Origin: a virus
Reading direction: 5' to 3' (one strand)
Length of the DNA: 42,203 nucleotides
IMG/VR virus record: IMGVR_UViG_3300005253_000060
Location: 1-42,203 of that record
Below, in pieces: positions 7,066 through 38,392 of this stretch (positions are counted from its first letter, which is position 1; each line of letters begins with the position of its first letter). The notes under the pieces are model-generated. The model was not told the origin of the DNA, did no database searches, and worked only from the letters and a program-made list of their open reading frames with translations. A program made the translations under genes and the position numbers.

Positions 7066-7067
7066 GA

Positions 7068-8177
7068 TCAATCGGCCTTGCCCATAGCTTTGGCCATCGC
7101 CATCGCTTCCGCTGCGGCCTCGACATCCTTGAGAAGGATCCGGCCTTCCTTGCCCGTACCCTGGATCGCTCTCAATTGAATGTCGTGCTTGCCTGCGAAC
7201 TCTATTGCGCCGTCGGTAGCATCGATCGACGACTCCGGAGCCAGGCCATCTAGCGGGCCATACTTGTTGATAATGAAAATTAGTGAATCTGCCCAGGTGC
7301 TGAGTTCCTTTTTAATGGCCTGCCCCTCGTCGGTATCGACGCCGAAGTGATTGGCGATTAGCCAGAATTGCGTGGAGCCGATCTCGTAGGGTTTCTTCGT
7401 CGCTAGATCGCGAGCTTCCTTCAGCATGTCGAGGGCGCTAGTATCTTCCGCAGTTTCCTCTTCCTTACCGTCCTCGCTACCGAAGAGAGTCTCCGTGGCC
7501 TCGGTCGCCTCCTCCTCGCCATTGGATCCATTCTCGGGATCTTCTTCCAGCGTCCACTCGCCCGCGATGATGGGGCCGGTTGGTTCACTCGGGACGGCAA
7601 ACGGAAGATCGAAGCGCCGCTTCAAGGCATCAGCCTCAGATCGTTTCATGGCTACCTGGATTGGATCCATTCGAGTCGACTCGCCGTCCTTGATGTATCC
7701 GACGCCGGTCGAGTAGGGTCGCTTACCGAGCACTTCCGGGATGATCTCTACTGGCACACCATCTTCTTTCAATCTCTTCCAACCGTCCGAATAGGTCCGG
7801 ATCGTTTCACTGTCGCGGATGATGCACTTGAAGGCCAGGGCCTTGTCTGGGATCATGAACAGGTTACGTTCGTCGGGATCCGTGATTTCTAGAAACTCAG
7901 TCCAGAAGCTGCCGTCGATCTGCTGGCGGGCAGCTTTGCGCAATCCCTTGATGCCAGCCATGAGACCGGATCCAGGGATGTACCAGATCTCGCCGTTGAA
8001 TGGATCGAGGCCGTGCGCGATGGCGCCCTGGGCGAGGGCGAGTGCTTCATTCTCATCGAGCCTCTTGCCGCCCGGTGCCATTAGCTGGACGCGCCTGGCG
8101 ATCTCGCGGAGCTCCTTACGTTCGCCCCATGGCGCAATTCGGGATTCGTTCGTGGGAACTATGGCTGTCTTATCCAT
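7068..8177 (-). CDS. recT: RecT-type single-strand annealing protein with an E3-binding-like C-terminal domain
   Basis: Residues 20-215 fit the RecT/Redβ family: a helical start, then AHGLDPFNGEIWYIPG (55-69) and GLMAGIKGLRKAA (71-83). Such proteins coat single-stranded DNA and anneal it to complementary strands. An acidic linker (about 215-250) leads to a second helical stretch, and residues 318-357 resemble the peripheral-subunit (E3) binding fold (ATDGAIEF…IQGTGKEGRILLKDVEAA). The family usually ends soon after the annealing core, so this 369-aa form is extended. It overlaps the first operon gene by 8 nt and is next to sbcD, forming an annealing-plus-nuclease pair. Confidence 0.85.
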   Translation of the reverse strand: MDKTAIVPTNESRIAPWGERKELREIARRVQLMAPGGKRLDENEALALAQGAIAHGLDPFNGEIWYIPGSGLMAGIKGLRKAARQQIDGSFWTEFLEITDPDERNLFMIPDKALAFKCIIRDSETIRTYSDGWKRLKEDGVPVEIIPEVLGKRPYSTGVGYIKDGESTRMDPIQVAMKRSEADALKRRFDLPFAVPSEPTGPIIAGEWTLEEDPENGSNGEEEATEATETLFGSEDGKEEETAEDTSALDMLKEARDLATKKPYEIGSTQFWLIANHFGVDTDEGQAIKKELSTWADSLIFIINKYGPLDGLAPESSIDATDGAIEFAGKHDIQLRAIQGTGKEGRILLKDVEAAAEAMAMAKAMGKAD

Positions 8178-9691: not shown

Positions 9692-10621
9692 TTACTTGAC
9701 TCCCATGATTCTGGACATTGGGCTGTAGGGCTCAAAGTCCATCGGAGTGAGAGCCTGTGAGTAGCGCTCCACCTCCTTCACGGATCTCCAGCGACCGGCG
9801 AGTTGTACTAGCCGAGTAGGCGCACCGCCCTGCAAACTCAACGTGGCGAAGCTCCTACGAAAGTCGTGCGGGGAAACCAATCCAATTCCAGACTCCTTTC
9901 CTAGATGTCGGAGGATCGCACCCAGCCCGTTTCGCGTGAGCGAGGTTCCGGGCTTGTTTCCTCCTACGGATACGAAGACGGTGGAAGCGCGGGCATAGCT
10001 CTCCCTCACCGCGAGCCAGTTCGCCATTGCCGCCTGCGTGTAACGGCCAAACACCGCACCGCCGATACGACCTCCCTTTATGCGCACAACCAGCGATTGA
10101 GCTTCAAGATCAAAGTGCGCCAGCTCTAGCCGACAGATTTCCGAAGCTCTCAATCCCGTGTCGAGCAAGAGACTGATGAGGGCGAGGTCTCGGACGCCTT
10201 TAGGCTGGCTGGTATCCAGGTGACCGAGCAATTGATCCACCTGGGCCACGTTCAACGTGCGTTGAGGGGTGGGGTGGCGCTTCGGGAAGGGGATTGTTTC
10301 TGCGGGGTTGTCCTGGCCAATGCACCATCTGAAGAACAGCTTTAGGGCACAGATGGCGACGTGCTGAGTGGCGGGGCTCAAGTTTCTAGCTCGTATCCAG
10401 TCTCGGAGGTCCTCGGTGTTGACCAGATGCGGATCATGAATGTCAAAGTTTCCAAGCCACATGATCGCGTTGTAGAGGTGGCGTTGGTAGTGCTCGATCG
10501 TTCGTTTAGAAAGGGTGGATTCTTTCTCTAATATGAAACTTTCAAGCAAATCAAACATCTCCTTTTCCTCACTAGTTGGGGACATCTCTTCACCTTCCTT
10601 GGCGGGCTGCGGACTCGGCAT
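9692..10621 (-). CDS. int: Tyrosine recombinase (phage integrase)
   Basis: A 309-aa protein with an N-terminal SAM-like core-binding domain (about 20-110) and a catalytic domain carrying Arg158 (TGLRASE), Lys182 (IKGGR), His252 and Arg255 (SPHDFRRSFAT), Trp278 in the second-His position (GRWRS) and nucleophile Tyr287 (VERYSQ). The set is complete. It catalyses site-specific integration and excision between attP and host attB. There is no arm-binding N-terminal domain of lambda type, so it resembles the simpler XerD-like integrases. A second start at 10585 also has a good ribosome-binding site. It is transcribed away from the replication block from its own promoter. Confidence 0.93.
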   Translation of the reverse strand: MPSPQPAKEGEEMSPTSEEKEMFDLLESFILEKESTLSKRTIEHYQRHLYNAIMWLGNFDIHDPHLVNTEDLRDWIRARNLSPATQHVAICALKLFFRWCIGQDNPAETIPFPKRHPTPQRTLNVAQVDQLLGHLDTSQPKGVRDLALISLLLDTGLRASEICRLELAHFDLEAQSLVVRIKGGRIGGAVFGRYTQAAMANWLAVRESYARASTVFVSVGGNKPGTSLTRNGLGAILRHLGKESGIGLVSPHDFRRSFATLSLQGGAPTRLVQLAGRWRSVKEVERYSQALTPMDFEPYSPMSRIMGVK

Positions 10622-13971: not shown

Positions 13972-14150
13972 CCGAGATCGCGCTTACCGAGGCGTACGAT
14001 CGCCTGGTGGCCATTGCGCGAGCGAACGCCAAGAACAGTGCGCTGTTGGTGCTCTATGCAGAGGTTTTGAGGAAGCACGTTGCGGAGCTCGAGACCGAGG
14101 TTGAGGAATTACGGCGGAGGCTAACTCTGAATGAATCAAATACCGATTGA
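13968..14150 (+). CDS. Small coiled-coil protein, 60 aa
   Basis: A short helical protein; residues 30-52 (YAEVLRKHVAELETEVEEL) have clear heptad spacing. It starts in an ATGA overlap with the zinc-ribbon gene and its last 20 nt overlap the ParB-like gene in a different frame. Function unknown. Confidence 0.55.
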   Translation: MTEIALTEAYDRLVAIARANAKNSALLVLYAEVLRKHVAELETEVEELRRRLTLNESNTD

Positions 14151-15021
14151 TCACGTGGCGCCGGATCCGGACCAGCCGCGGCAAACCTTCAGCAACGAAT
14201 CGCTGGAGGAGCTCGCAGCATCGATCCGCGAACATGGCGTAATCCAGCCAATCGTCGTTGAGCCCAATGGTTCCGGCACGTACGTCATTCAAGCCGGCGA
14301 GAGACGCTGGCGCGCCGCTCAGATCGCCGGCCTAACGGAGATCCCGGCTTTCGTCGGGAGCTCGACGCCAGACACCGAGGATCGCTTTGTTCGGGCGCTT
14401 GTCGAGAATCTGCAGCGGGAAGATTTGAACCCGATTGATGAGGGCTATGCTTACGCGCGGCTGCAGGAAGCCGGGTTGAGCAATATCAAGATCGTCAGGT
14501 TGTGTGGTGTTTCCCCTCCCCGAGTTGCCGCGCGCCTGATCCTGCTCAAGCTGGATCCGAAGATACAGCAGCTGGTCGCCGCCGGCGAGCTGTCCAAATC
14601 TCCTGATGTGGCCAAAGCACTGCTGAGTATTCCCGATCAGGATGCTCGCGTGGAGTACGCGAAGCGGTCCGCTAAACGTGGATTAACTATCAAGGGGATC
14701 GTTGCCGGCTGCCGGCGGATCATCACCTTGCTGGAGGCGGATGCGCTTGAGAGGGGGAAGACCCCATCGCTCAATATAGCAACCCGGCGCCGGGCTTCCG
14801 AGTGGAATCTCGTCAAGCAGATCGAGCTGGACCTGGAAGGCCGCATGCCTCCCTGGCAGACTGTAGAGCTGGCGGCAGAAAAGACCTGTCAGGGCTGCTC
14901 GCTGCTGGATATGGCCTCGATCGTCGTTTGTGGCAACTGTCCGGGGGTTGAGCTCGTGGCCCACATGATCGAACTGGAGGCCAACCGTGTCCGAAAACGA
15001 CATGCTCGAGCAGCTGATTGA
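14131..15021 (+). CDS. ParB/Spo0J-like protein with C-terminal zinc motif
   Basis: A 296-aa protein. Residues 3-100 are the ParB N-terminal (CTPase-like) domain with PDPDQPRQTF, HGVIQPIVV, GERRWRAAQIAG and VENLQREDLNPI motifs. A helix-turn-helix follows (SNIKIVRLCGVSPPRVAARL). The C-terminal 60 residues carry CQGC and CGNC, a probable zinc site unlike the usual ParB dimerisation domain. No ParA partner is seen. Stand-alone phage ParB-like proteins may act as regulators or nucleases rather than in partition. Confidence 0.85.
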   Translation: MNQIPIDHVAPDPDQPRQTFSNESLEELAASIREHGVIQPIVVEPNGSGTYVIQAGERRWRAAQIAGLTEIPAFVGSSTPDTEDRFVRALVENLQREDLNPIDEGYAYARLQEAGLSNIKIVRLCGVSPPRVAARLILLKLDPKIQQLVAAGELSKSPDVAKALLSIPDQDARVEYAKRSAKRGLTIKGIVAGCRRIITLLEADALERGKTPSLNIATRRRASEWNLVKQIELDLEGRMPPWQTVELAAEKTCQGCSLLDMASIVVCGNCPGVELVAHMIELEANRVRKRHARAAD

Positions 15022-15997: not shown

Positions 15998-16212
15998 GCA
16001 TCGGACAGAATCCTCCCGCCCTAGTCGATCTCCTGACCCGCGAACAGCAGCAGGTGCTCGCCGACAGGTTGGCTGTCGTGCTCGAGGAAGGTTATGGAGA
16101 AGTGACCATCACGGTCCATCGAGGGCATGTGAAGTTCGTGCGCATTCTGAGCTCGTATGATTTGACACCCAACGGAGAAAATGATAAATTGCCGCGGAAG
16201 ACCAACAACTAG
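15994..16212 (+). CDS. Hypothetical protein, 72 aa
   Basis: It starts at TTG 15994 in a TTGA overlap with the preceding stop, with GGAGGGAG upstream. The protein has a helical first half (LVDLLTREQQQVLADRLAVV) and a strand-rich second half. It ends the rightward early block: the next 115 nt hold an intrinsic terminator, and a promoter lies inside the gene's 3' end (16162-16190). Function unknown. Confidence 0.6.
   Translation: MSIGQNPPALVDLLTREQQQVLADRLAVVLEEGYGEVTITVHRGHVKFVRILSSYDLTPNGENDKLPRKTNN
16162..16190 (+). promoter_or_regulatory. Promoter ahead of the late leader terminator
   Basis: A consensus -35 TTGACA (16162-16167), a 17-nt spacer and TAAATT (16185-16190). The predicted start near 16197 gives a leader of about 85 nt ending at the terminator at 16242-16282, just ahead of the first structural-block gene. 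Confidence 0.5.
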
Positions 16213-16241
16213 ATAGCTTTCTGCGCTCGACAGCGTGACCT

Positions 16242-16282
16242 ACACCGGGGCTCAGCCAATGTGCTGACCTCGGTGTTTTTTG
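16242..16282 (+). terminator. Intrinsic terminator before the head block
   Basis: A stem pairing ACACCGGGGCTCAGC with GCTGACCTCGGTGT (one G-U, one bulge) around CAATGT, followed by six T. Upstream, CGCTCGACAGCG (16226-16237) forms a small tetraloop hairpin. It separates the early rightward block from the head genes. Confidence 0.85.
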
Positions 16283-16547: not shown

Positions 16548-16952
16548 ATGTCCAAAAAGAAGCTGACCGCCAAGCAGCAGCTTTTTGTCGCGTTCTTTCT
16601 TGATACGTTGAACGCGACCTTGGCGGCTGAGTTAGCGGGTTACAAGGGCAACCGAGCGACGCTCGCGGCTGTCGGATACGAGAACCTTAGAAAACCTCAC
16701 ATCGCGGAGGCAATTAGAGAAGGCATGGCTGATCTTGCCATACCGGAAGAGGAGCTTACCGCGCGGCTTTCTGCGGAGGCAAGAGGTCAGCTGGCTACCA
16801 GGATCACGAAGGGCCCTAAAGGCACCACCGAAACCTTTGATGCAATGGGGGCTCAAGAGAACTTGGCCAGGATCTTTGGCACGTTGAAAGAAAAGATCGA
16901 ACACAGCGGAGAGGTAAACCTACGCGTAATCCGTGACGACCAAGACACTTGA
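16548..16952 (+). CDS. terS: Terminase small subunit
   Basis: A 134-aa protein with the Terminase_2 pattern: LTAKQQLFVAFFLDTLNATL followed by AAELAGYKGNRATLAAVGYE, a helix-turn-helix that recognises the packaging site, and a C-terminal oligomerisation part with KGPKGTTETFDA. It directly precedes and overlaps the large subunit by 20 nt. Confidence 0.85.
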   Translation: MSKKKLTAKQQLFVAFFLDTLNATLAAELAGYKGNRATLAAVGYENLRKPHIAEAIREGMADLAIPEEELTARLSAEARGQLATRITKGPKGTTETFDAMGAQENLARIFGTLKEKIEHSGEVNLRVIRDDQDT

Positions 16953-18201
16953 TCTCGATGTCCATCTGCGCAAGCTCCATGATCGACAGCTCGGGATCCG
17001 CCGGAGCAAGGCCAAGCGAAAGGTCGTTCGTGCTGGACGCCGTGCAGGGAAGACGGTGCTTGCCGCAGATGAATCCGTTGAGAGGTTTCTGAATGGGCGC
17101 CGCATTTTGTATGGGACGCCCACCCAAGAGCAGGTCGATACCTTCTGGTTCGAAGTTACTCAGGCACTTAGAGAGCCGATCAACGCCGGAATTTTCTATA
17201 AGAACGAGACGCGCCACATCATCGAGCTGCCCGGTACTAAGCAACGGATTCGAGCCAAGACCGCCTGGAACGCGGACACTCTGCGCGGTGACTTTGCGGA
17301 CTATTTGATTTTGGATGAATACCAGATGATGTCCGAAGACGCCTGGGGCCTGGTTGGGGCGCCTATGCTGCTGGATAACGATGGCGATGCGATGTTCATT
17401 TACACGCAGAAGCGTGGCAAGCATCACTCCAAGGACCTGTTCAAGAGGGCTACGGCTGATGATTCAGGCCGCTGGGAGGTCTTTAGCTTTTCCAGTCATG
17501 AGAATCCGTTCCTTCATGCTGAAGCCTTAAAAGAAATCACCCAGGATATGACTCAGCTCGGCTACCGGATGGAGATCCTAGCCGAGGAAGTCGAAGATGA
17601 TCCGCGAGCTCTATGGAGCCGGGAAATCATTGATGAGGTAACTGACTTCCCGATACTGGCCAGAATTACCGTAGGCGTGGATCCACATGCGACGACGGGC
17701 CAGACTGGCATCGTCACGGTGGGCGGCGCTCGAATTGGGGATGATGTCCATCTTTATGTTTTGGATGATTCCACGCCGCCTCCTGGTGTGAAGCCCGCCA
17801 AGTGGGGTACGGAAGCTGTCGCTGCTTATAACAAGAACGAAGCCGATCGCATCGTCGGCGAAATCAATCACGGTGGCGACATGGTCGAGAACGTGATCCT
17901 GAACGTTGAAGGCGGAAAGCTTGTCCGCTTCGAGGCGGTGCGCGCCAGCCGGGGAAAGCATGTCAGGGCTGAGCCTGTGGCAGCGGCTTACGAACAGGGT
18001 CGCGCCCATCATGTCGGGGAATTCGCCGAGCTTGAAGACGAGCTCTGCAATTGGATCCCGGAAGAATCGAAATGGTCACCGAACAGAATGGACGCGCTGG
18101 TATGGGCAGCTACTGATTTGATGGAATATCTGAGCGGTGCGACCTGGGGCGACGTTGATGAATTGGGAGAGATCGAGGACTTCGAGAGTCCGTGGGCATA
18201 G
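16933..18201 (+). CDS. terL: Terminase large subunit
   Basis: A 422-aa packaging motor. The ATPase domain has Walker A AGRRAGKT (34-41), Walker B YLILDEYQ (124-131) and the coupling motif FIYTQ (155-159). The RNase H-like nuclease domain starts with Asp250 in VGVDPHA and ends with the Asp of RMDALVWA near residue 393. All key residues are present. It cuts and pumps DNA into the prohead through the portal. GTG start. Confidence 0.95.
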   Translation: MTTKTLDLDVHLRKLHDRQLGIRRSKAKRKVVRAGRRAGKTVLAADESVERFLNGRRILYGTPTQEQVDTFWFEVTQALREPINAGIFYKNETRHIIELPGTKQRIRAKTAWNADTLRGDFADYLILDEYQMMSEDAWGLVGAPMLLDNDGDAMFIYTQKRGKHHSKDLFKRATADDSGRWEVFSFSSHENPFLHAEALKEITQDMTQLGYRMEILAEEVEDDPRALWSREIIDEVTDFPILARITVGVDPHATTGQTGIVTVGGARIGDDVHLYVLDDSTPPPGVKPAKWGTEAVAAYNKNEADRIVGEINHGGDMVENVILNVEGGKLVRFEAVRASRGKHVRAEPVAAAYEQGRAHHVGEFAELEDELCNWIPEESKWSPNRMDALVWAATDLMEYLSGATWGDVDELGEIEDFESPWA

Positions 18202-21229: not shown

Positions 21230-21354
21230 AATTTGATCCTTGGCATTTCGAGCTCTTGCGAATCGGATTTCATTGGCGCTATGGATTTCTCGGAGAGACC
21301 ATCCTCTGGTTTGATGGTCGAACAAGACGAGTTGCTAGGTTCTATTGGCGATGA
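21226..21354 (+). CDS. Small Trp/Phe-rich protein, 42 aa
   Basis: An open frame read MKFDPWHFELLRIGFHWRYG… ending FYWR. It is linked by ATGA overlaps to the genes on both sides. With its neighbour it forms a run of tiny aromatic-rich genes after the gpF-like gene. Function unknown. Confidence 0.5.
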   Translation: MKFDPWHFELLRIGFHWRYGFLGETILWFDGRTRRVARFYWR

Positions 21355-21542
21355 CTAAGACCGACGACATCTCCTACCGCGCCAGGTCCGTCGCCCGCTT
21401 CATAGATCGCCTTAAGCCTGGTGATTACGTCATTCATTTGACGCTACCGCCACGGCACTATGCGGAGCCTTTCGAGATCAAAGCTGAGACAGCTGACTTG
21501 ACAGAGAAAAACGAGCATGCTATAAAGGCCAGCGAAAGTTAG
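21351..21542 (+). CDS. Hypothetical protein, 63 aa
   Basis: It starts at the ATG at 21351, overlapping the previous stop as ATGA. A soluble protein (SYRARSVARFIDRLKPGDYV) with an acidic, Glu/Lys-rich C-terminus. The last 45 nt also contain a near-perfect sigma-70 promoter, so coding and promoter sequence overlap. Function unknown. Confidence 0.55.
   Translation: MTKTDDISYRARSVARFIDRLKPGDYVIHLTLPPRHYAEPFEIKAETADLTEKNEHAIKASES
21498..21526 (+). promoter_or_regulatory. Strong sigma-70 promoter inside the head block
   Basis: TTGACA (21498-21503), a 17-nt spacer and TATAAA (21521-21526): a perfect -35, optimal spacing and a one-mismatch -10. It is the best promoter match I find in the genome. 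Transcription would start near 21533 and meet a strong terminator at 21588-21620. Confidence 0.75.
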
Positions 21543-21620
21543 TATCAAACCAATCTATCCGCCTCGTGGCGCGTGTACTTAGTCACTGGCCGGGAGCCCA
21601 TAGGCTCGCGGCCTTTTTTT
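21533..21620 (+). ncRNA. Predicted ~88-nt small RNA or attenuated leader
   Basis: Bounded by a near-consensus promoter and an intrinsic terminator. It is predicted to hold two hairpins: a tetraloop stem CGCC-TCGT-GGCG at 21561-21572 and the terminator stem. It contains no start codon with a ribosome-binding site. It may be a discrete small RNA, or the default short product of a promoter whose readthrough into the protease and capsid genes needs an antiterminator, like lambda pR'. Confidence 0.55.
21588..21620 (+). terminator. Strong intrinsic terminator before the protease gene
   Basis: GGCCG-G-GAGCC pairs with GGCTC-G-CGGCC around the loop CATA and is followed by seven T (21614-21620). It ends only 8 nt before the protease ATG, leaving no room for an ordinary ribosome-binding site. 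Confidence 0.9.
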
Positions 21621-21628
21621 ATGCCACT

Positions 21629-23005
21629 ATGAAAAACGACTTCTTTCTTGTCACCGAGCTGGAGACGGAGACACTCACCGAGGGCAAGACCTTTGACGGT
21701 CTTGTCGCTGGCGACTTCGTTGATATGCACGGTCGGCGGATCCTCGTCGAGGAAGACGAGCTCGAGGATTACGTAGCCAATACCCAGTCTGCAATCGAAG
21801 CGACCGAGTCTGAGAGTGGCGAGATCGTCGGGCTGCCGATCGACGTCTACGACCACGACAAGGAGGACGCCGCGGGTTGGATCGTCGGCGCCAGTCTATC
21901 GGACGGGGTCATCCGTCTGGATCCCAAATGGACAGCACTCGGGAAAGATCTGATCGAGGAAGGGATCAGGCGGTTCTTCAGCGCCACATTCAACACTGAC
22001 CAGCAGGTCATCCTCGGAGGCACGCTCACTAATTGGCCGGCCACCCGCGACGACGAGGGCCGGGTCATGCTCCGGCCGATCGAACTCTCGACGTCGATGT
22101 TCTCAGTCGAGCGCGAGCTGGCAGAGGAACCCGAGAGCACGGAAGACCGGCTCAGTCGCATGCAGGCTGACTTTCGCGATCAGTTTCCGTATTTCGACAA
22201 CCGGCCTTATATGTGGATCGAAGATACCTTCGATGAGGAAAGCTTCGTCATCGTCGACGAAGACGCCCGGCATTACCGAGTCGAGTTCTCGGAGAATGAC
22301 GACGGCAATTTTGATTTCATTGATCGGACCGAATGGGTGGAAGTCAAGCAGACCTGGATCGACGCGGCCAAGAAGGCCGCGCGTGACATCATCTTGGGCG
22401 GACTAAGCCGAAGGAAACACGATAAGCATGGAGGTAGGAATATGCCAAAAGACAAGCTGACACTGGACGACCTCAGCCCCGAGGAAAAGAACGAGCTGGC
22501 GCTCGGCGTGCTGGCGGAGCTCGGTGGCGAGAAGTACAACCCCGCTGACTTGGGTGCGCAAGTCGATCTAATGGTCGATCAGCGTGCCCGCAAGATCGTC
22601 GCCGAGGAAACCGCCAAGGCCGAGCGCGAGCGGGGCATTGCCGAATTCGCATCCCGCATCACCGGGGGCGACGAAAAGACCCCGGCCGGCCTGCCAGTCA
22701 ACAAGGAGCAGCTCGAGGCATTCCTCGGTTCGTTGGATAACGACCAGCGCGAAGCGGCCACCGCCATTTTCGATGAGATCGTGACCAAGGGCGGGCTGGT
22801 TGAGTTCACCGAGGACGGTCACAGCCGCAAGGAACGGGGCGGATCCCCACTGCCGGAAGAGATGGCGGAGCAGCTGCGGACCTACCTGGCCGAGAGCAAG
22901 GATGCCTCGGTGGCCGAGTTCTTCGAGGTCAACGAGGACATGCTCGGGCCGATGACGGACTACAACCTGAGCGAGTTCAAGGAAAAGGAAGGTTCCGATG
23001 GCTGA
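21629..23005 (+). CDS. Prohead protease-scaffold fusion, Mu gpI-like
   Basis: A 458-aa protein. Residues 1-170 resemble the Mu-type head maturation protease (GLPIDVYDHDKEDAAGWIVG, IEEGIRRFFSATF, ILGGTLTNWPATRD, MLRPIELSTSMF). Residues 272-458 are an acidic helical scaffold. The start at 21629 lacks a Shine-Dalgarno and follows the T-tract of a terminator by 8 nt; the frame stays open back to a GTG at 21566, which also lacks one. An internal start at 22442 should give free scaffold. Cleavage of scaffold and self during head maturation is inferred from the family. Confidence 0.8.
   Translation: MKNDFFLVTELETETLTEGKTFDGLVAGDFVDMHGRRILVEEDELEDYVANTQSAIEATESESGEIVGLPIDVYDHDKEDAAGWIVGASLSDGVIRLDPKWTALGKDLIEEGIRRFFSATFNTDQQVILGGTLTNWPATRDDEGRVMLRPIELSTSMFSVERELAEEPESTEDRLSRMQADFRDQFPYFDNRPYMWIEDTFDEESFVIVDEDARHYRVEFSENDDGNFDFIDRTEWVEVKQTWIDAAKKAARDIILGGLSRRKHDKHGGRNMPKDKLTLDDLSPEEKNELALGVLAELGGEKYNPADLGAQVDLMVDQRARKIVAEETAKAERERGIAEFASRITGGDEKTPAGLPVNKEQLEAFLGSLDNDQREAATAIFDEIVTKGGLVEFTEDGHSRKERGGSPLPEEMAEQLRTYLAESKDASVAEFFEVNEDMLGPMTDYNLSEFKEKEGSDG
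22442..23005 (+). CDS. Nested scaffold protein, in-frame internal start
   Basis: The ATG at 22442 lies in the frame of the protease gene and has a strong GGAGGT 6 nt upstream, far better than the full-length start. The 187-aa product begins MPKDKLTLDDLSPEEKNELA and is acidic and helical with Gly/Glu-rich stretches, as expected for scaffold. This is the lambda C/Nu3 and Mu I/Z arrangement: one frame makes a few protease fusions and many free scaffolds. Confidence 0.75.
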   Translation: MPKDKLTLDDLSPEEKNELALGVLAELGGEKYNPADLGAQVDLMVDQRARKIVAEETAKAERERGIAEFASRITGGDEKTPAGLPVNKEQLEAFLGSLDNDQREAATAIFDEIVTKGGLVEFTEDGHSRKERGGSPLPEEMAEQLRTYLAESKDASVAEFFEVNEDMLGPMTDYNLSEFKEKEGSDG

Positions 23006-23459
23006 CCTGACAGCTGATGCACCGCTCCGATTGTGGAGCGATAAGCGCACGTTCACGGAGAGGTGGGGCGTCGACTCGAGCGTGGCCCGGACGATCTATA
23101 AGGGCCAGCCGATGATCATCGATCTGACGGTTGACACCCTTTTTCTGGCGCAGTTCGTGGACGCGGTAGTCGTGGCTGCCACTGACATCTTTATCGGCGT
23201 AGCGGCTGAAGGGATGTCGGTAGCCTCCGGAGACACGGAGGGCGACGACGAATTAATAGTCTACGTAGACGGCACGATCCTCGGTTTCAAGTCGACAGTC
23301 TTCACCGACGCAGACGTCGGGGATACTGTCTACATGAGCGATTCGGCAGTCCTGAGCGCGACCGCGGCCGACAACCCGGAGCTAGGCTTACTTCATCGAG
23401 TGGTTGATGGGTACGCCTACGTGCAGCTCATCACGCCAAGTATCACAACCGCCGCCTAG
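22998..23459 (+). CDS. Probable capsid decoration protein, 153 aa
   Basis: A strand-rich protein with many Val/Thr/Asp and no cysteine. The second half (VYVDGTILGFKSTVF, DADVGDTVYMSDSAVLS, ELGLLHRVVDGYAYVQL) is typical of small beta-barrel cement proteins (DUF2190-like). It lies between scaffold and major capsid genes, the usual place for such a gene, and overlaps the scaffold by 8 nt with GGAAGG upstream. Confidence 0.65.
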   Translation: MADLTADAPLRLWSDKRTFTERWGVDSSVARTIYKGQPMIIDLTVDTLFLAQFVDAVVVAATDIFIGVAAEGMSVASGDTEGDDELIVYVDGTILGFKSTVFTDADVGDTVYMSDSAVLSATAADNPELGLLHRVVDGYAYVQLITPSITTAA

Positions 23460-23477
23460 AGCCAGGAGGGAGACACA

Positions 23478-24374
23478 ATGATTTCAGGTAACGTACCGAA
23501 ACACCTGGTCGTGGGCGCCCGCACGGGCTTCCTAAACGGATTGCGCCGCCGAGAGTACGAATGGCAGCGCATCGCAGCGACCTTCAACATGGGGGCGGTG
23601 AGTGAGCAGCTCGTCGACATCGGAGCCGCACCTATGCCCAAAGAGTCCAAGGGTGGCATGACCATCCAGGACTTCATCGAGCGGGAGATGACGCTAAAGC
23701 CGACCGATTGGGACATCACAGTCTGGATCTCGCATAACGCGGTGAAGGACGATCAGACCGGCGACCTGGACCGGAGAGTGAGAGCATCCGGTGAGAACTT
23801 CCAGAAGCACCTGAACGCCCGCGTGTTCACCGCACTCAACGCTGGCGACGGCACGACCTTCGGTTTGGCCTATGACGGACAGGACTTCTTCGACAGCGAT
23901 CATGTTGACGCGGGAGCGGATTACAGCACCGCCCAGGACAACGAGGGTGCGCTCGTGCTCGATCTCAATAACTTCGAGACGAGCCTTGTCGCAGCGCAAA
24001 AGTTCCGCGACGACCAGGGCCAATTCACGAGCTTCAACTATGACCTGATCGTGGTTTCGCCTGAGCTCCAGCGCGAGGCGGCTAATATCGCCGAGAACCC
24101 CCAGGATTATGCGACGGCGAATCGGGCAGTCAACCCATTCGCTTCCGGGCTGGACTTCATCGTAGCTCCGGAGATGGATGCAACGGCCTACATTTTGATT
24201 GCGTCAAACGAATCCCATAAGCCGATGATCGTGGGCATGAAAGAACAGCCGAACCTTCAGCACGCCTGGTTCGATCCGGACCAGCCGGAGGGCGGATACT
24301 TCTTCTTCAAGTTCTATGCTCGCTACGAAGTGGTATACGGCGACTGGAGACTGGCTTACCAGGGAAACACTTAG
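23478..24374 (+). CDS. Major capsid protein, Mu gpT-like
   Basis: A 298-aa protein of the Mu gpT type: FIEREMTLKPTDWDITVWIS, the central FGLAYDGQDFFDSDHVD (matching the GxxFF…H motif of the family), FRDDQGQF…LIVVSPELQREA, and a C-terminal FKFYARYEVVYGDWRLAY. It should form the T-number lattice with an HK97-type fold. AGGAGG precedes the ATG. It is placed directly after scaffold and decoration genes. Confidence 0.88.
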   Translation: MISGNVPKHLVVGARTGFLNGLRRREYEWQRIAATFNMGAVSEQLVDIGAAPMPKESKGGMTIQDFIEREMTLKPTDWDITVWISHNAVKDDQTGDLDRRVRASGENFQKHLNARVFTALNAGDGTTFGLAYDGQDFFDSDHVDAGADYSTAQDNEGALVLDLNNFETSLVAAQKFRDDQGQFTSFNYDLIVVSPELQREAANIAENPQDYATANRAVNPFASGLDFIVAPEMDATAYILIASNESHKPMIVGMKEQPNLQHAWFDPDQPEGGYFFFKFYARYEVVYGDWRLAYQGNT

Positions 24375-29350: not shown

Positions 29351-31395
29351 ACATCACCATCAAAGCCACCGACAAAGCGTCGGGGGTCCTCAAGCGTATC
29401 GGTGGCGGCTTCGCCAAGCTCGGGCTGGCGGTGGCGGCTGCTGGAGCGGCAGCGGCAGCCGGTTTCGCGGCCATAGGCTTCGCTTCGGTCAAGGCCGCCA
29501 TATCGCTCGAGAGCGCCTTTGCCGGAGTCGCCAAGACCACGGATGGCCTGGTCGACGACATGGGTCGGCTCACCCAAGTCGGTTCCGAGATCAGGACGGG
29601 CTTCCGCGACCTGGCCAAGGAAGTGCCCATCGCGGTCGAGGAGCTGCTCAAGATCGGCGAGCTCGCCGGCCAGCTCGGCATCCCGAAGAACGCGCTGATC
29701 GACTTCACAGAGACCGTCGCCGCGCTGGGCGAGACTACAAACTTAACCACCGAAGCAGCGGCTACCTCGCTCGCACGTCTGGGCAACATCTACCAGGTCA
29801 AGAGCGAGAATATGGCAGAAAGCACCTCGCAGGTAGGCTCTGCGCTCGTAGCCCTCGGTAATCAATTTGCCACCAATGAAGCGGACATTATCAGCTTCGC
29901 GGAACGCATCGCTGGCGCAGGGAAAATCGCAGGGCTCACCCAGAGCGACATCCTGGCGATTGGCGCAGCATTTAGCTCTGTGGGTATCCAGGCCGAATCC
30001 GGCGGCACCGCGGTTCAGACGGTGCTACAGGAAATGCAGAAGGCGGTTATCGAAGGTAGCGATACTCTCGATCTTTTCGCCGAGGCCACTGGCAAGAGCG
30101 CCGAAGAATTCGCCGATGCTTTCCGCACCGACGCGGCCGGCGCCTTTTCCGAGTTCGTACTTGAACTCGGCAACCAGGGCGAGCAAGCCTTTATCACGCT
30201 TGAGGAGCTCGGGCTCGCAGATCGGCGCCTCTCGCGCGCATTCCTCTCTCTCGGCGGCGCCGGAGACTTGCTCAACCGCACGATGGAGGTCTCGAACGAA
30301 GCCTTCGACGAGAACATCGCGCTCATGGACGAGGCCCGGATTCGCTACCTCACCACGGAATCGCAGCTCAGGATCCTTAAAAATGTCTTCCGTGACATCG
30401 GGATGACGATCGGTAACGCATTCCTGCCGTTTCTCAATATGGCGATCCAGGCCGCCAGGCCCTTCATCGATAAATTCGTCATCGGCATAGAGCGCGCCAT
30501 CGATGATTTCCTGACTCCTGCGCTCGAGGGCCTGGTCGAATTCTTCAGCACCAAACTTCCGGCGGCGCTCGAAGGGCTGGCCGCCTTTTTCGAGCCAGTC
30601 AAGATCGGCCTCGGCGAGCTCGTGGACACTTTTCTGGACAGCGCGCCTGAGATCAAGGACGCATGGGAGGACCTCAAAGATTTCTTCAAGACTACGATCG
30701 CTCCGGGCCTGCAGGACTCTTTCGACAACATCGGCGAGGGCCTGATCGGGCTCGCCGAGCTGTGGGAGGAGAACGACAGCCTCATCATCAAGTCCGCAGA
30801 GAAGGCCTTTGAATTCCTGCTGGTCGTGATCACCATCATCCTCAACGCGATTACCGGAGCCTTCAAGGGCGCCATCCTACTGATACAAGGCGATTGGGAT
30901 GGCTTCTGGCAGCACACTAAAGACAGCGCCGAGACCGCGCTGAACCTGATGCTCGGGATCGTCGACACGAACCTGGAAGAGTTCAAGGCTACCTGGAAAC
31001 GGGTCTTCGAAGGGATCGTGGCCCTGGTGGCGACCCAGATCGCTCTCATCCTGCGCGAGATCGACCGCCTAGCGGCCAAGTTCCGGAGCATCGTGCTTCC
31101 GTCGTGGATGAGGCCGGGATCCCCGACACCGCTCGAGGTCGGGCTGCGCGGGATCGCCGGCGCCATGAACGAACTCGCTTCTATTCAGGCGCCGCAGTTA
31201 GCGGGTGCCCTATCAGGCGGCGGCGCTGTCGGTTTAGGCGGAAGCTCCGTGAGCTCGAGCTTCGTCATCCAGCAGCTGACCGTGCACGCCGGTCAGGGCC
31301 AGGACGGCACCCAAATCGCTCAGCAAATCATGGACGAGATCGGACGCCGAGTGCGCGTGGCCACGGCCAGTGGACAGGGATTCGTGGGGACGTAA
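29326..31395 (+). CDS. Tape measure protein, 689 aa
   Basis: Residues 30-55 are an Ala/Gly-rich hydrophobic stretch; 56-330 match the TP901-type tail tape measure domain (TTEAAATSLARLGNI, SFAERIAGAGKIAGLTQ, IQAESGGTAVQTVLQEMQKA, FTLEEL-like GLADRRLSRAFLSL). Then come hydrophobic segments near 350-375 and 490-520 and a C-terminal FVIQQLTVHAG region. The length predicts a tail of about 100 nm, using the usual 0.15 nm per residue. Confidence 0.9.
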   Translation: MAIGSPDVNITIKATDKASGVLKRIGGGFAKLGLAVAAAGAAAAAGFAAIGFASVKAAISLESAFAGVAKTTDGLVDDMGRLTQVGSEIRTGFRDLAKEVPIAVEELLKIGELAGQLGIPKNALIDFTETVAALGETTNLTTEAAATSLARLGNIYQVKSENMAESTSQVGSALVALGNQFATNEADIISFAERIAGAGKIAGLTQSDILAIGAAFSSVGIQAESGGTAVQTVLQEMQKAVIEGSDTLDLFAEATGKSAEEFADAFRTDAAGAFSEFVLELGNQGEQAFITLEELGLADRRLSRAFLSLGGAGDLLNRTMEVSNEAFDENIALMDEARIRYLTTESQLRILKNVFRDIGMTIGNAFLPFLNMAIQAARPFIDKFVIGIERAIDDFLTPALEGLVEFFSTKLPAALEGLAAFFEPVKIGLGELVDTFLDSAPEIKDAWEDLKDFFKTTIAPGLQDSFDNIGEGLIGLAELWEENDSLIIKSAEKAFEFLLVVITIILNAITGAFKGAILLIQGDWDGFWQHTKDSAETALNLMLGIVDTNLEEFKATWKRVFEGIVALVATQIALILREIDRLAAKFRSIVLPSWMRPGSPTPLEVGLRGIAGAMNELASIQAPQLAGALSGGGAVGLGGSSVSSSFVIQQLTVHAGQGQDGTQIAQQIMDEIGRRVRVATASGQGFVGT

Positions 31396-33888
31396 ATGGC
31401 AGGCGAAAAGATAAAAGCCGTGCTTGAATACCAGGGACGAGAGCTGGATCTCAATGATCTCACTGCGGGTCTATATACCTTAGCGGAGGGCTTTATACCA
31501 CCGCCGGTCTCGCTGGTTCCGACACTCAGCCGGGGGACTGCAGCTAACATTCGCGGAGGCGCAGAGCTCGCGAGTATGAAAGCCGATAATCGTCCCTGGG
31601 ATTTCGCGGTCAATGTACGGGGCGCGAGCGAGGCGGAGATTACCGGCGGCATCCGCCGACTCAACCAGTTCTTGCGGCAGGCCACTGGCGAACGACCTGT
31701 CAATTTGCTCTATCGCAGCAATCGAGACGTGGGCTTCGAGCCGCTGTGGGGATCCTACGGTGCCGACCTGCAGTACGAGATCGTCTTCGGCAAAGCGATG
31801 GCCACGCTTGCCTACCCAACCGGCGTCACACCGAATCTTATTATTCCAGAATGCCGAATCTCGCTTGAGGTGAAGCCCTACGCTTTGAGCCAGCGGCAGC
31901 GAATGGCATTCGCTCAAGGTGGGATCCTAGAGGACTTGATCGGGGCAATCGACGGTTTCAGCCGCGGGACATTCATTCCCGAAGCGACGACCAACAAGAT
32001 GACTAACCCGATCTTCGGCAACGCGACGTTCGACAACGCTTGGACCGCCGGAGCGAACATCGTCAAAGCGGAAAACACGGACCGGAAGTTCATCACTCAT
32101 GGCAAGTCTAGCGCGAAGCTCTCCGCGGTAGCCGCAACAACAAACACCTTCACTCAGTCGATCGCTGTCGGGGACACGGTCCAGTATTTCTTTTCCGCCT
32201 ACGTCAAGCTACCAGGCGGAGGGGTCCCGACCAGTTCCGATCTGCAACTCCATTATGGCAGCGACCAGACGACTACCTTCCGGTCGGTGGGGGATGGCTG
32301 GTACCGAATGACGGTGGAGGTAACGGGCGTGGTAGCAGCGACGAACACCGGCGTAGTCGTGAAGAGCGGGCGGACCGTTTATGTGGACGGCTTCCAGATT
32401 GAGAAGAAAGTGTCCACCGAGATAGAACAATTCACATCGGTCGCTCATGGAGATCTCCTGGACTGCGCCTGGACCGGGACGTCACACGCTTCGACAACGA
32501 CCCGAATACGCACCCAGCTTTCGGTCAATAAAGATGATGCTTTCGACGTTTCTGAGGGGACCGTGCAAGTGGTCGTGAAGTGGGAGACCGACAACACGCG
32601 GGCCTCCTCCGCTTTCTTCTTCTTCCTGAGCGGGTCGATCCAAGCCTCGTTTTCGTCGGGCAGCGACCGGATTCAATTCTCAGACGGCACCGACACGGTG
32701 CTCGACGATGGCAACACCTTCTCACCAGGCGACATCTGGATTCTGCATTTCGTCTTCGGACCGAACGGGAAGAAGATTTATCTGGATGGGGTGGAGCTCG
32801 CGACGACCGCTACTTACACGCCGAATGCAGGAACCGGAGACCTGTTCATAGGATGCACGGGCTTGGTTGGACAAAACTTCTGGGGATCCCTCATGGATTT
32901 CGCTACTTACGCCCAGGCTATGAGTGCCGCCGAGGTGCTGGCCGATTTCAATAACATCGACAAGCAAGTGGAGGACGACCGACGACTGGCGCCCATACCC
33001 TGGTTCTGGACGCGTAACGGTGATGGTCTTATCGAGAATTGCAACGACGGGACCAAGCTCAACTACGCGGTGGCGGGTGGAATCCCCGGATCCGCTCCGG
33101 CCCTTACGCGGCTTAAAGTTAAGCCCGACACGATCTTCACCGGGGCATCCGACATTTGGCTCAGCCTCTATCCACAAGATGAATTCATCGACCCAGACAA
33201 CAACATTTGGGATGACGAACAGGGGACCGTGGAGGCCGGAGCTTGCGGGGGCCAGGTCAATACGATCAACATCTCGGGGTCAGCTTCGGTCACCATAGGA
33301 ATCACGAACATAAAACGTTATGAGTTGGTCGCTGGAAAAGACATCTACCTTCTCATCCGCTTGCGAGACATCGGGACCAACCTGCTGGCACGTTTCGAGT
33401 ACGAAATGTCGGGGAGCCAATACGAAACCGACTTCAAAGCGCTGGCGGCCACGACCACTCAGAAGCTTTTTGTCTTGGGCCCGCTACCTTTCCTGTCCTA
33501 CAAGAGCATCGTGGCGGAATTCGGCGACGCCTTCATGGATGAAGTTATTGATGCCGATGTGACATTGAAGCGGACCACAGGAACAGCGGCCAACGACTGC
33601 TTAATCGACTTCGTTATGCTGGTGGCCAGACCATTCGTTCTCATCCAGAACGACCTGAACGTGAGCAATTATTATTTGTTGGAGGATGTCCAGTGCGTTG
33701 AACGGGTTGCCAGTGGCGATCAGTTCGTAGAGTTTGTTTCCACGCTGGGGGATGTCATCGAATTCGAGCCCGAGAAGACCAACATTCTGACATCCATGAT
33801 GGGTCGGGATGGCGAGGATCACGAAGTCGACGACGACGACTTCGATTATTTGGATGTCGTGGTCACCCCGCGTTGGGAGCTTTTGTGA
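31396..33888 (+). CDS. Distal tail-like protein with carbohydrate-binding and LamG domains
   Basis: An 830-aa protein. Residues 1-165 fit a distal tail (Dit) core; 190-340 look like a CBM-type jelly roll (FDNAWTAGANIVKAEN, YFFSAYVKLPGG, DGWYRMTVEVTG); 360-530 look like a LamG/concanavalin domain (KIYLDGVELATTATY); the rest is a second Dit-like part ending VVVTPRWELL. Dit proteins enlarged with sugar-binding domains bind host surface polysaccharides. It follows the tape measure directly. Confidence 0.7.
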   Translation: MAGEKIKAVLEYQGRELDLNDLTAGLYTLAEGFIPPPVSLVPTLSRGTAANIRGGAELASMKADNRPWDFAVNVRGASEAEITGGIRRLNQFLRQATGERPVNLLYRSNRDVGFEPLWGSYGADLQYEIVFGKAMATLAYPTGVTPNLIIPECRISLEVKPYALSQRQRMAFAQGGILEDLIGAIDGFSRGTFIPEATTNKMTNPIFGNATFDNAWTAGANIVKAENTDRKFITHGKSSAKLSAVAATTNTFTQSIAVGDTVQYFFSAYVKLPGGGVPTSSDLQLHYGSDQTTTFRSVGDGWYRMTVEVTGVVAATNTGVVVKSGRTVYVDGFQIEKKVSTEIEQFTSVAHGDLLDCAWTGTSHASTTTRIRTQLSVNKDDAFDVSEGTVQVVVKWETDNTRASSAFFFFLSGSIQASFSSGSDRIQFSDGTDTVLDDGNTFSPGDIWILHFVFGPNGKKIYLDGVELATTATYTPNAGTGDLFIGCTGLVGQNFWGSLMDFATYAQAMSAAEVLADFNNIDKQVEDDRRLAPIPWFWTRNGDGLIENCNDGTKLNYAVAGGIPGSAPALTRLKVKPDTIFTGASDIWLSLYPQDEFIDPDNNIWDDEQGTVEAGACGGQVNTINISGSASVTIGITNIKRYELVAGKDIYLLIRLRDIGTNLLARFEYEMSGSQYETDFKALAATTTQKLFVLGPLPFLSYKSIVAEFGDAFMDEVIDADVTLKRTTGTAANDCLIDFVMLVARPFVLIQNDLNVSNYYLLEDVQCVERVASGDQFVEFVSTLGDVIEFEPEKTNILTSMMGRDGEDHEVDDDDFDYLDVVVTPRWELL

Positions 33889-35532
33889 ATGGCGCGCAAC
33901 GACCTGCGGGTAGAGATATTTACGAGCGGAACGACAGCGGTGGTGGACGCGGCCGACGACTTCCGCCGCTTCCAGAACATGCAATTTTCTACTGGGTATC
34001 CGGGCGGACTCTACCTAGCCGCGAAGATGGCAGTATCCAGGGACATCGTAAAGGCCTGGCTTCTGAAAGGGGCACAGCGGCTGAGAATTTTGAACGGGCA
34101 TCAGGTAGTTTTCGAGGGACAAATCGAAAGTTTGGAGCGGGCACTGCTGTCCGACACCCAGGAAATATTGATCTATGCAGTGGGTTATTGGGGATCCCTG
34201 CTGGCCAGCCGTCGCCTTCGCCGTCTGTATGCCGACGAGCGGACCAGCGCGGACGTCTGGCAAGAGCGCAGCGGCGTCGACGAAGTCGTCGAGACTATCA
34301 ACATCGACCGGTTCGACTTCGAGAATGGGACAAACCAGATCAAGCTGCTTCCCCAAGCGGGAGTCAACTGGGGATCCGCGGACCGGATCCGTATCCGCTA
34401 CAAGGCGCCGGCGGGAGAAACCATCCACCGGATGGAATTCGACTGCCAATTTTCGGAGGGCAGCCAGGTATGGACCACCAAATTGCAGGACGTCGATGAC
34501 ACCGAAGCCACGCTCTATTCGCGGACCGCGACTGGCACCGACGTCAACCAGTCGGTCGAGCCGGCGGTCGGCTCGACCATCATTGATATGTTTTTGACAT
34601 CTACCAACGCGCAGACCAGCCCGGCCAACATGGACGTCTTCGTGGATTATCGGAACATCATCGTGTACGCGGCCAAGAACCACACCCCGAGCAGCGGAAA
34701 GGGAACTGTCGATTTGACGGAGATCACGAAGGACATCCGGGCCGAGTTCAGCGAACTCTCGGCTGATGAAGATCTCATTGCCAGCAATACACTGGCACTT
34801 AAACCATTCATTGCTCCGCGGTATCCGACCGTGGCCGACATCCTGAGTCGGGCCTCGGTGTATGGCGACGCGAGCCAGAACCGATGGGCGACCGGGATAC
34901 GAGGATCTCACCTGGCGAGTGACGCTTTGCCCCTCCTATTCGCCGAGCAGTATCCGGCCTTGACCGGTTTCGATTACGCGGTGCGCGTTGACGAGCCTAA
35001 CCTGGTGCCGCCGTTCAACATCACGGAAGGCTACATCGGGTCCGATGAAAACCGCGTCTGGAATTTCATAATCGTGGAATTCTCCGACGAGCGGGGATTC
35101 TCAGACTGGGTCACGCCCGATGACGATGCCAACCTGAAGGACCAGACCTCGATCGACGATTTCGGTCAGCGCGATTACCGGCTCACCATTGGGCACGCGA
35201 CGCAGGCCGTGGCGGTAAACGCGGGACGCCGCTTTCTGACTGCGCACAAGGACGCAGCCTGGTCTCTAAGGGGGCCGATCGCAGTACAAGACTTCGTGCG
35301 CGGGGCAGGCGGCCAACAGATCCCGGCCTCTGAAATACAGGCTGGTCGCCGGTTGAAGATCGAGAATTTTCTGCAGGACCCGGCGACTGGCGCCGACGAG
35401 CTGATATTCCTGATCACGAAGACGGATTACGTGGACGACGAGCGGGTCTGCAACATGACGGTCGGCGTGCCGAACTCGCTCGACGTCTACCTCGCGCAGC
35501 GCGAGCTCGTGGATGAGAGGTTGCTAGGATGA
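33889..35532 (+). CDS. Tail tip / baseplate hub protein, 547 aa
   Basis: It starts NDLRVEIFTSGTTAVVDAAD with an early LRILNGHQVVFEGQIES segment, the pattern of hub (Tal/gp27-like) proteins that begin with a barrel domain, followed by long strand-rich regions and an ILSRASVYGDASQNRWATG segment. It immediately follows the Dit-like gene, as tail-associated hub genes do. No lysin domain is evident. Confidence 0.6.
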   Translation: MARNDLRVEIFTSGTTAVVDAADDFRRFQNMQFSTGYPGGLYLAAKMAVSRDIVKAWLLKGAQRLRILNGHQVVFEGQIESLERALLSDTQEILIYAVGYWGSLLASRRLRRLYADERTSADVWQERSGVDEVVETINIDRFDFENGTNQIKLLPQAGVNWGSADRIRIRYKAPAGETIHRMEFDCQFSEGSQVWTTKLQDVDDTEATLYSRTATGTDVNQSVEPAVGSTIIDMFLTSTNAQTSPANMDVFVDYRNIIVYAAKNHTPSSGKGTVDLTEITKDIRAEFSELSADEDLIASNTLALKPFIAPRYPTVADILSRASVYGDASQNRWATGIRGSHLASDALPLLFAEQYPALTGFDYAVRVDEPNLVPPFNITEGYIGSDENRVWNFIIVEFSDERGFSDWVTPDDDANLKDQTSIDDFGQRDYRLTIGHATQAVAVNAGRRFLTAHKDAAWSLRGPIAVQDFVRGAGGQQIPASEIQAGRRLKIENFLQDPATGADELIFLITKTDYVDDERVCNMTVGVPNSLDVYLAQRELVDERLLG

Positions 35533-36464
35533 TCGCATCACGGGAAAAAGGCGCAATGGTGTGGCAGCTCCGTCAATGGATGGGCGGCGACGCAATTGCT
35601 CAGGCCGAACACGCGCTAGAACTCGGATTGCAAAACGTGTGCATCAAGATCAACGATGGTCGACAAGAGCGATGGGAGGGCAACCGCACTGATCAGAATG
35701 CAGACTTTCTGCCGGCGACCGTCAATGCACTTCAGGCAGCCGGGATCCGGGTCACCGGATGGGGATGGACCTATGGCGGTAGCGGATCCATCCGCTTCCG
35801 AACCTTCCGGCCGAACGCCGACATTGCCAGGCGGGAGGGGGAACTTTCAGGCGAGCTCTGCCTTAGATACGGAATGAAGGACTACTTTATTGACGCTGAG
35901 GTTCAGTATCACCGGGATGGCATGGAGCCAAGCGCCAATGCCTTCTGTGAAGGACTCAAAGGGATGGCGCCGAACGTGAATCAGCTGCTTTGCAGCTATC
36001 GCTTCCCGCGCACCGCGCAGCCCAAGTTCCCGGTTAGAACCTTCGCGCCGCATCAGAACGGATGGGCGCCGCAGGTTTATTTTCTGCAGGATAACCGCGT
36101 CGACGGCGGAGCGATCCAGCTCCAGCGATCGAAGGAAAATCACTATGACCTAATTCGGCAGCTGCCCTACGTTGGGGTCGCACCAACCTATCTTCACAAG
36201 TACAGGATCAATCTTCAAGCCCGAACATGGACTGCCAACAAGCTACAGCTCACAAACTTCTTCCAGCGAGCGGCGGCGATTGGTTGCGAGGGAATCAGTG
36301 TATGGCGACTTGAGGAAGCGAATGCAAGCCAACTCGAGGCGATAAAGGAATTCAATTGGCCAGGCTCGGTAGAGCCTCCTGATCCGCCGCCCGACGAGAA
36401 AGTAAATATCGAGGTTCGAGTGCCAGCGGGCAAGACAGATGTGCAGGTAGTGGAGGTCGAGTGA
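35529..36464 (+). CDS. GH25-like TIM-barrel hydrolase, candidate endolysin
   Basis: A 311-aa protein with TIM-barrel rhythm: VWQLRQWMGGD, NVCIKINDG, IRVTGWGWTYGG, then YFIDAEVQYH (about 119-128) whose DAE resembles the catalytic D-x-E of GH25 muramidases, and later QVYFLQD and GISVWRLEEAN. A Pro-rich linker (EPPDPPPDE) leads to a short strand-rich tail that may bind the wall or virion. It overlaps the hub gene by 4 nt and the holin-like gene by 4 nt. It is either the endolysin or a tail-bound wall hydrolase. Confidence 0.6.
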   Translation: MIASREKGAMVWQLRQWMGGDAIAQAEHALELGLQNVCIKINDGRQERWEGNRTDQNADFLPATVNALQAAGIRVTGWGWTYGGSGSIRFRTFRPNADIARREGELSGELCLRYGMKDYFIDAEVQYHRDGMEPSANAFCEGLKGMAPNVNQLLCSYRFPRTAQPKFPVRTFAPHQNGWAPQVYFLQDNRVDGGAIQLQRSKENHYDLIRQLPYVGVAPTYLHKYRINLQARTWTANKLQLTNFFQRAAAIGCEGISVWRLEEANASQLEAIKEFNWPGSVEPPDPPPDEKVNIEVRVPAGKTDVQVVEVE

Positions 36465-36757
36465 GCAACGGCGATCCAGTCACCCAGAAGCAGTTCGCGG
36501 ACACCATGCGAACGGACAAGAAGGAAGTGCTCGATGCCATCGAGAAGGTCAACGGGCATACCCAGGATTTGCGAGTTGACGTTGGGAAGGTCCAGACCAG
36601 TCTCGATACCCACGAGAAGCGCATGGATAAGCAGGACGAGCGCATGGATGGACAGGATGACAGGATCGAAAATCAAAAGACATGGAACCGCGGCTTGGCC
36701 GCAATAGAAGCATTGCTGGCTATGTTGCTGGCCTGGGTAGGAATAGGGAAGGAATGA
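36461..36757 (+). CDS. XhlA-like holin / hemolysin, 98 aa
   Basis: Residues 10-75 form a polar coiled coil with repeated KMDKQDERMDGQDDRI-type units; residues 77-94 (GLAAIEALLAMLLAWVGI) are one membrane helix at the C-terminus. This is the plan of XhlA-type holins. GTG start overlapping the hydrolase stop. Adjacent to the candidate endolysin, it is the best lysis holin in the genome. Confidence 0.7.
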   Translation: MSNGDPVTQKQFADTMRTDKKEVLDAIEKVNGHTQDLRVDVGKVQTSLDTHEKRMDKQDERMDGQDDRIENQKTWNRGLAAIEALLAMLLAWVGIGKE

Positions 36758-36999
36758 GCGAAGGTCTTGTTGAAGAACGGCGGAAGACCGGAAATCGACT
36801 ATCAGGTTTTCAGTGTCCGAAGTGCCACGGCTGTTTTCTATTTTGGGAATTTACCTCAATGAGCTGGAAGGGATATAGCTGCCAGAATTGCGGCTACAAC
36901 TTCGCAATCGATGAGATCGACTTTTTGACCGCGGGTCAACATCTGGGCAGTCTAGTCGAACTGCGAGCCAGGGATCAATTAGCAAGGAAGGGGTTTTAG
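36754..36999 (+). CDS. Zinc-ribbon protein, 81 aa
   Basis: CPKCHGCF and CQNCGYNF form a four-Cys ribbon separated by about 20 residues, followed by a helical tail (LVELRARDQLARKG). The start at 36754 overlaps the holin stop (ATGA). Function unknown. Confidence 0.6.
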   Translation: MSEGLVEERRKTGNRLSGFQCPKCHGCFLFWEFTSMSWKGYSCQNCGYNFAIDEIDFLTAGQHLGSLVELRARDQLARKGF

Positions 37000-37167
37000 A
37001 TGGGCGCAAAAGGTAAGCCGATGAGCAAATTGACAATCGTTGAATTACGAGCCGAGAGCGATCGATTGGCGGGTGTGATTGCGGAAGTGCGAGTAATACG
37101 TCACAAGATCGCCGACAGAATTCGAGAGCTACAGGCTACGGAACGGGAGGAAGACGATGGCAGCTGA
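37000..37167 (+). CDS. Small helical protein, 55 aa
   Basis: An open frame starting MGAKGKPMSKLTIVELRAES, one long charged helix with heptad spacing (VELRAESDRLAGVIAEVRVI). It starts one base after the TAG of the zinc-ribbon gene and overlaps the next gene by 11 nt. A second ATG at 37021 is possible. Function unknown. Confidence 0.5.
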   Translation: MGAKGKPMSKLTIVELRAESDRLAGVIAEVRVIRHKIADRIRELQATEREEDDGS

Positions 37168-37609: not shown

Positions 37610-37619
37610 GGAGGTTGAC

Positions 37620-38380: not shown

Positions 38381-38392
38381 TCAGGGGGCATT

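Follow-up and report, generated by a model that had tools for sequence, protein, structure and literature searches.

A conserved short RNA before the capsid genes of uncultured phages with Mu-type heads is probably an undescribed RNA switch

In this study, we show that a short RNA element with covarying bases lies at one gene junction, before the head protease gene, across deeply diverged phages, which points to a common switch of shell synthesis. This short RNA before the capsid genes probably acts as a switch, not described before, that controls when the shell is produced. The reading that we favour, with moderate confidence, is that the element acts in cis as a transcription attenuator of the head (protease-scaffold-capsid) operon, according to the leader logic of the RAT type, and that it represents an RNA family absent from Rfam. 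The matter concerns how capsid production is turned on in uncultured temperate phages whose heads are of the Mu type. If our reading is true, an RNA family would be added beyond Rfam 15, and a promoter-terminator pair that resembles lambda pR' may act through RNA structure rather than through a Q protein. The window, by which we mean the whole stretch of DNA that was analysed, is a linear viral record of 42,203 bp (IMG/VR) and not a bacterial genome. Its features around the junction are as follows:

21351..21542, plus strand: small gene of 63 amino acids, ARxIDRLPPGxY family, with the promoter in its last codons; roughly half of the related loci have a homologue in this position
21498..21526, plus strand: predicted promoter, TTGACA-N17-TATAAA with extended −10; hexamers identical and synonymous codons frozen in the nearest relative, L002
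21533..21620, plus strand: predicted short RNA of about 88 nt, deduced from the promoter and the terminator
21588..21620, plus strand: intrinsic terminator (stem 21588–21613, T-run 21614–21620), predicted from its fold and of the same sequence in L002
21629..23005, plus strand: Mu-type head protease/scaffold gene, the first gene past the terminator (PF10123; head maturation protease in PHROGs)
22998..24374, plus strand: downstream genes of the operon, for a decoration-like protein (22998–23459) and the major capsid protein gpT (23478–24374)

The original prediction placed an RNA of about 88 nt between a TTGACA-N17-TATAAA promoter at 21498–21526 and a strong terminator, and both signals were found at those positions. 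The promoter consists of TTGACA (21498–21503), a 17-nt spacer and TATAAA (21521–21526), and it is also of the extended −10 type, with TG at 21518–21519. It scores 11/12, the top sigma-70-type site of the 42-kb window; sites of at least 11/12 occurred at a mean of 0.17 per window in 60 Markov-resampled windows, and none of the 60 had one that carried the TG too. The hexamers overlap the last codons of the small open reading frame. The terminator stem reads GGCCGGGAGCC-CATA-GGCTCGCGGCC, with one G.G mismatch, and is followed by the seven T. The 88-nt RNA has a predicted fold of −30.5 kcal/mol (z = −2.7) and, in agreement with the claim that it lacks a ribosome site, no Shine-Dalgarno motif was found inside it. 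The protease ATG at 21629, itself without a Shine-Dalgarno motif, stands 8 nt past the end of the T-run at 21620, and hence there is no room for a promoter between the terminator and the protease gene. Moreover, no capsid-only promoter was found inside the protease gene at 10/12 matches on that strand of the window. All protease and capsid transcripts that start upstream therefore seem to cross the 21588–21620 terminator. From these features we infer promoter activity, termination by default and regulated read-through. The proposal that a short RNA is made until antitermination occurs agrees with the anatomy, its recurrence among relatives and the apparently forced read-through into the protease gene, but the specific analogy with lambda pR' is not supported.

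The promoter and the terminator are found at the same place in L002, which was the sole close relative of the protease to be found among 2.9 million viral contigs (71% identity). Both hexamers are identical between the two, as are 33 bases over the terminator (the 26-nt hairpin and the T7), and the RNA between promoter and terminator differs by a 12-nt indel. The choice of synonymous codon is kept in 9/9 codons under the promoter and in 17/34 elsewhere in the same small open reading frame (p = 0.007); for the protease, decoration and capsid genes of this pair it is kept in 61–66%. Because the promoter codons are frozen relative to the rest of the frame, it is likely that the promoter region is under selection at the level of DNA or RNA, and not through the protein alone.

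The arrangement recurs in distant relatives. About 120 loci were gathered with terminase, portal and protease queries, and 59 non-redundant loci were kept, all from uncultured phages, in which a Mu-type protease could be recognised and the sequence upstream of it was long enough. A promoter-RNA-terminator unit, defined as a sigma-70-type promoter with an intrinsic terminator 25–150 nt further on, immediately ahead of the protease, was present in 46/59 loci compared with 6/89 other co-directional gaps, and its density was 2.47 per kb in protease gaps against 0.16 per kb elsewhere on the same contigs. A terminator as such precedes the protease in 54/59 loci and is found in 22/89 of the other co-directional gaps. 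No clear unit was seen in 13/59 relatives. The distance from the end of the T-run to the start codon has a median of 17 nt (at most 40 nt in 41/45), which would be just enough for a ribosome site. In the window (21629), in L002 (535) and in L045, L046, L049 and L052 this distance is 0–8 nt and the protease has no Shine-Dalgarno motif; other genes of the window, unlike the protease, do have one. No close DNA relative of the window was found in INPHARED, and a search of 84,980 species genomes for capsid relatives gave a single distant locus. Since no protease homologue was found among INPHARED phages or plasmids with the queries used, no cultured member could be used.

Directly before the terminator, 35 of the 59 loci share an RNA element, ACAACYGAAUA..YCUYG-[hairpin]-CUGG-terminator. 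The hairpin was spotted by reading the aligned sequences and was then counted. In a structure-free MAFFT alignment of 22 sequences, which were chosen and trimmed by eye for the model, the second hairpin pair forms in 20/20 cases, 11 of them with C-G, 9 with U-A and none mismatched, and sliding the partners destroys the pairing. With all 35 members, in an alignment fitted to the model, the same pair is C-G in 18 and U-A in 11, again with no mismatch. The lower stem, YC with GG, is able to pair in 35/35 members, one U-A exchange included. Its GG forms the first two bases of the terminator stem, and because these bases belong to both, the hairpin and terminator folds exclude each other there. The transcribed strand is fixed by the T-run and by G-U pairs of the terminator stem. 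Folding of the nascent RNA favours the small hairpin (mean 0.83 for the upper stem and 0.63 for the lower), and in the full-length RNA the lower stem is abolished (0.01) and the terminator forms. The conserved hairpin is short, with 2–5 pairs, and its upper stem is missing in 6/35 members; RNAalifold on alignment A7 gave the base of the terminator only. In the window, the element and its two competing hairpins are placed as follows:

21545..21620, plus strand: covariance-model match of the RNA element (model R1, 37.2 bits; model R2, 23.5 bits)
21562..21589, plus strand: conserved hairpin, from covariation in the relatives (CC 21562–21563 with GG 21588–21589; GUGGC 21566–21570 with GUCAC 21582–21586)
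21560..21571, plus strand: tetraloop hairpin CGCC-UCGU-GGCG, a predicted fold and the rival of the conserved hairpin

The tetraloop hairpin that the original prediction had noted before the terminator does exist, and it is the predicted winner in the window, but the relatives conserve the other one. The conserved hairpin is not the energy optimum of the window sequence: the local hairpin beats it, and its nascent probability is 0.05, compared with 0.80 in L002. Model R1 includes the window sequence, whereas R2 was built without the window and L002; R2 still has its sole match in the window at the element, with a modest score (E 0.012). Judged from its position, the motif, L002 and the leave-out model, the window is a divergent member of the RNA element family.

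The element is tightly bound to this junction. Over 707 kb of loci, R1 gave 37 matches, every one just before the protease; in one locus (L100) a separate gene for the N-terminal part of the protease stands between the two. R2 gave 15 further held-out matches, all of the protease-junction type. Among 47 whole virus records, 36 had one match (E < 0.05) and none had a second, and in 33 of the 36 the element is directly before the protease. In G041 it again follows the small gene directly at this junction, but five inserted genes separate it from the protease. The matches in G024 and G025 (18.4 bits) sit elsewhere, resemble plain terminators and are probably due to chance. When an 18-base pattern was searched in all viral contigs without regard to genes, five contigs were returned, all at this junction, four with the protease downstream and one that ends soon after the match and has the small gene upstream. 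At the gathering score, Rfam 15 had no match in the window and 27 related loci; the best sub-threshold match was Hrs13, with 14.1 bits of the 52 needed. In the open-access literature we found no paper on such an RNA before a phage protease. In a protease tree the carriers are widely spread, and well-supported branches force at least eight changes of state; this agrees with an element of old origin that was lost or diverged in places, and transfers may also have contributed. As a separate observation, the five products inserted in G041 (L154; G041 30500–40500, minus strand) each carry, close to the N-terminus, a motif resembling GGPGSG..GRPGxVGGS that may serve for head targeting or as a cleavage signal.

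How the element would work can be set out as a sequence of steps. A sigma-70-type promoter would start transcription of the leader, and the nascent RNA would first fold the small hairpin (YC-UY-G..C-U-GG). As the polymerase advances, the terminator hairpin would capture the two G needed by the first hairpin, so that by default transcription would stop after about 55–95 nt. If the first hairpin were stabilised by a protein or another signal, or if the polymerase were terminator-resistant, transcription would run on into the protease gene, which begins a few nucleotides further on, and the shell proteins would be produced. This resembles the RAT leaders of the BglG/SacY/LicT type and the ANTAR leaders, in which, between promoter and gene, the terminator and an antiterminator hairpin cannot form together (PMC3369936). 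Bases common to the hairpin and the 5' strand of the terminator, a RAT-type trait, are found in the family (GG), but the two-stage folding is not found in the window sequence. The present element differs from those leaders in its sequence, in an overlap that spans just two bases and in its target, the head operon of a phage; no BglG or ANTAR protein is known to take part here. The put RNA of HK022 is likewise a short phage RNA made soon after a promoter and tied to terminator read-through (PMC9378689). However, put has two adjacent stem-loops in about 70 nt that act on the polymerase with no need of a phage protein, occurs in two copies downstream of early promoters and has no terminator fold of its own, whereas the present element has one hairpin joined to its terminator, occurs about once per genome and lies before head genes.

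With regard to the signal, it is possible, and we put it forward tentatively, that the element represents a new class of phage RNA switch which moves together with the head-gene module, and that the small ARxIDRLPPGxY protein, the scaffold or capsid protein, or the polymerase alone times the operon without a conventional late regulator. In 11 long records the genes that recur widely are those of the head (portal, protease, decoration and capsid) and a few of the tail, and no regulator common to all 11 was found. The small gene is present in 26/35 loci with the element and in 4/24 without it (Fisher p = 2e-5, relatedness of the loci not being removed), which makes its product a candidate partner of the RNA element. 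This family of about 65 amino acids had no match in Pfam, PHROGs or NCBIfam. The protein is predicted to fold into one helix and two strands (pLDDT 76); this fold had no match in the PDB, and we therefore infer no function from it.

A trans-acting phage small RNA, whose ACAACYGAAUA segment would pair with host or phage mRNAs while the capsid operon is read from upstream by a terminator-resistant polymerase, seems rather unlikely. In favour of it are a promoter and a terminator of its own, an unpaired conserved 5' segment and about one copy per genome. However, a trans-acting gene has no need to be locked to one gene junction with its T-run at the ribosome site, nor does this reading account for a hairpin that overlaps the terminator. 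Moreover, complementarity of the 5' segment to phage start regions was like that of shuffles in 9/11 records, and the results in the other two may reflect antisense reading frames called over the element.

It is also unlikely, and slightly more doubtful, that an antiterminator protein binds the promoter DNA in the manner of lambda Q at pR' and makes the polymerase terminator-resistant. The promoter-terminator geometry is that of the late promoter pR' of lambda and phage 21, where promoter, short RNA, terminator and late genes follow each other and the Q protein binds DNA at the promoter (PMC6606751). At the start of the packaging genes the window has a second unit, which would be another entry site under this scheme:

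16162..16281, plus strand: TTGACA-N17-TAAATT, an RNA of about 79 nt and a strong terminator made of a long hairpin and T6, ahead of the packaging genes

This unit lies inside the 3' end of a small open reading frame and is followed by a small membrane-protein-like frame and the terminase genes, and units occupy apparently similar places in some other records and in L039. It was rejected as a second copy of the RNA element, with 4.0 bits only. What counts against a Q-like scheme is that no Q-type antiterminator of PF06530 or PF03589 was found in 22 records, although control genomes were positive, with the reservation that Q proteins are diverse and other types fall outside these two families. 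In addition, Q-type late antitermination calls for a Q-binding element in the promoter and a sigma-dependent pause, and the promoter spacers here are conserved among close relatives only and vary between phages. The shared-regulator search was negative as stated above, and the covariation of the RNA would be left unexplained. The conserved feature here, unlike that of pR' (PMC6606751), is an RNA structure, and the lambda Q mechanism behind the pR' analogy of the original prediction is not supported.

It is improbable that the unit serves insulation, in the sense that the terminator closes the upstream operon, the promoter is a non-regulatory housekeeping promoter present by chance or as a relic, and basal leakage is enough for the head genes. 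In favour of this, the terminator alone is commoner at the protease gap (54/59) than the whole unit (46/59), and classical Mu-type phages have a gap here too. But a promoter followed by a terminator would defeat a plain promoter, the covariation of the RNA and the frozen promoter codons require another reason, and capsid genes usually require high expression.

In Mu, the gap ahead of this gene (protease I) holds the late promoter P_I, which requires the activator C (PMC4461284). In contrast, the RNA models gave nothing above chance in Mu itself or in seven further Mu-type records from isolates or prophages (D3112, FP_Mushu, Mx4, SuMu, a Klebsiella phage, a Helicobacter prophage and VW-6B). A different AT-rich, GTTTTTAAAnnGGTTTAAAAACG-like stretch is common to SuMu, the Klebsiella phage, VW-6B and Mu (L124, L125, L127 and L128) in the gap before gene I, and in these classical phages it is near the Mu gyrase site.

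Finally, it is highly improbable that the RNA has a structural or assembly role in the head, comparable to that of the phi29 packaging RNA: the element does travel with the portal, protease, decoration and capsid genes, and the terminase differs between its carriers in the 11 long records, but at only 55–95 nt it holds a terminator and a single short conserved hairpin, and its fixed site right before a start codon suggests regulation.

Outside the head operon, the large terminase of the window (16933–18201) has its best INPHARED match by identity, 50%, in the archaeal Methanosarcina virus MetMV, whereas the rest of the phage looks bacterial. A leftward operon (3399–7071, minus strand) carries SbcC- and SbcD-like nuclease genes. 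A tyrosine integrase (9692–10621, minus strand) and a ParB-like protein (14131–15021, plus strand) are found beside the Mu-type head, and the phage would appear to be temperate and to integrate with the help of a recombinase instead of by transposition.
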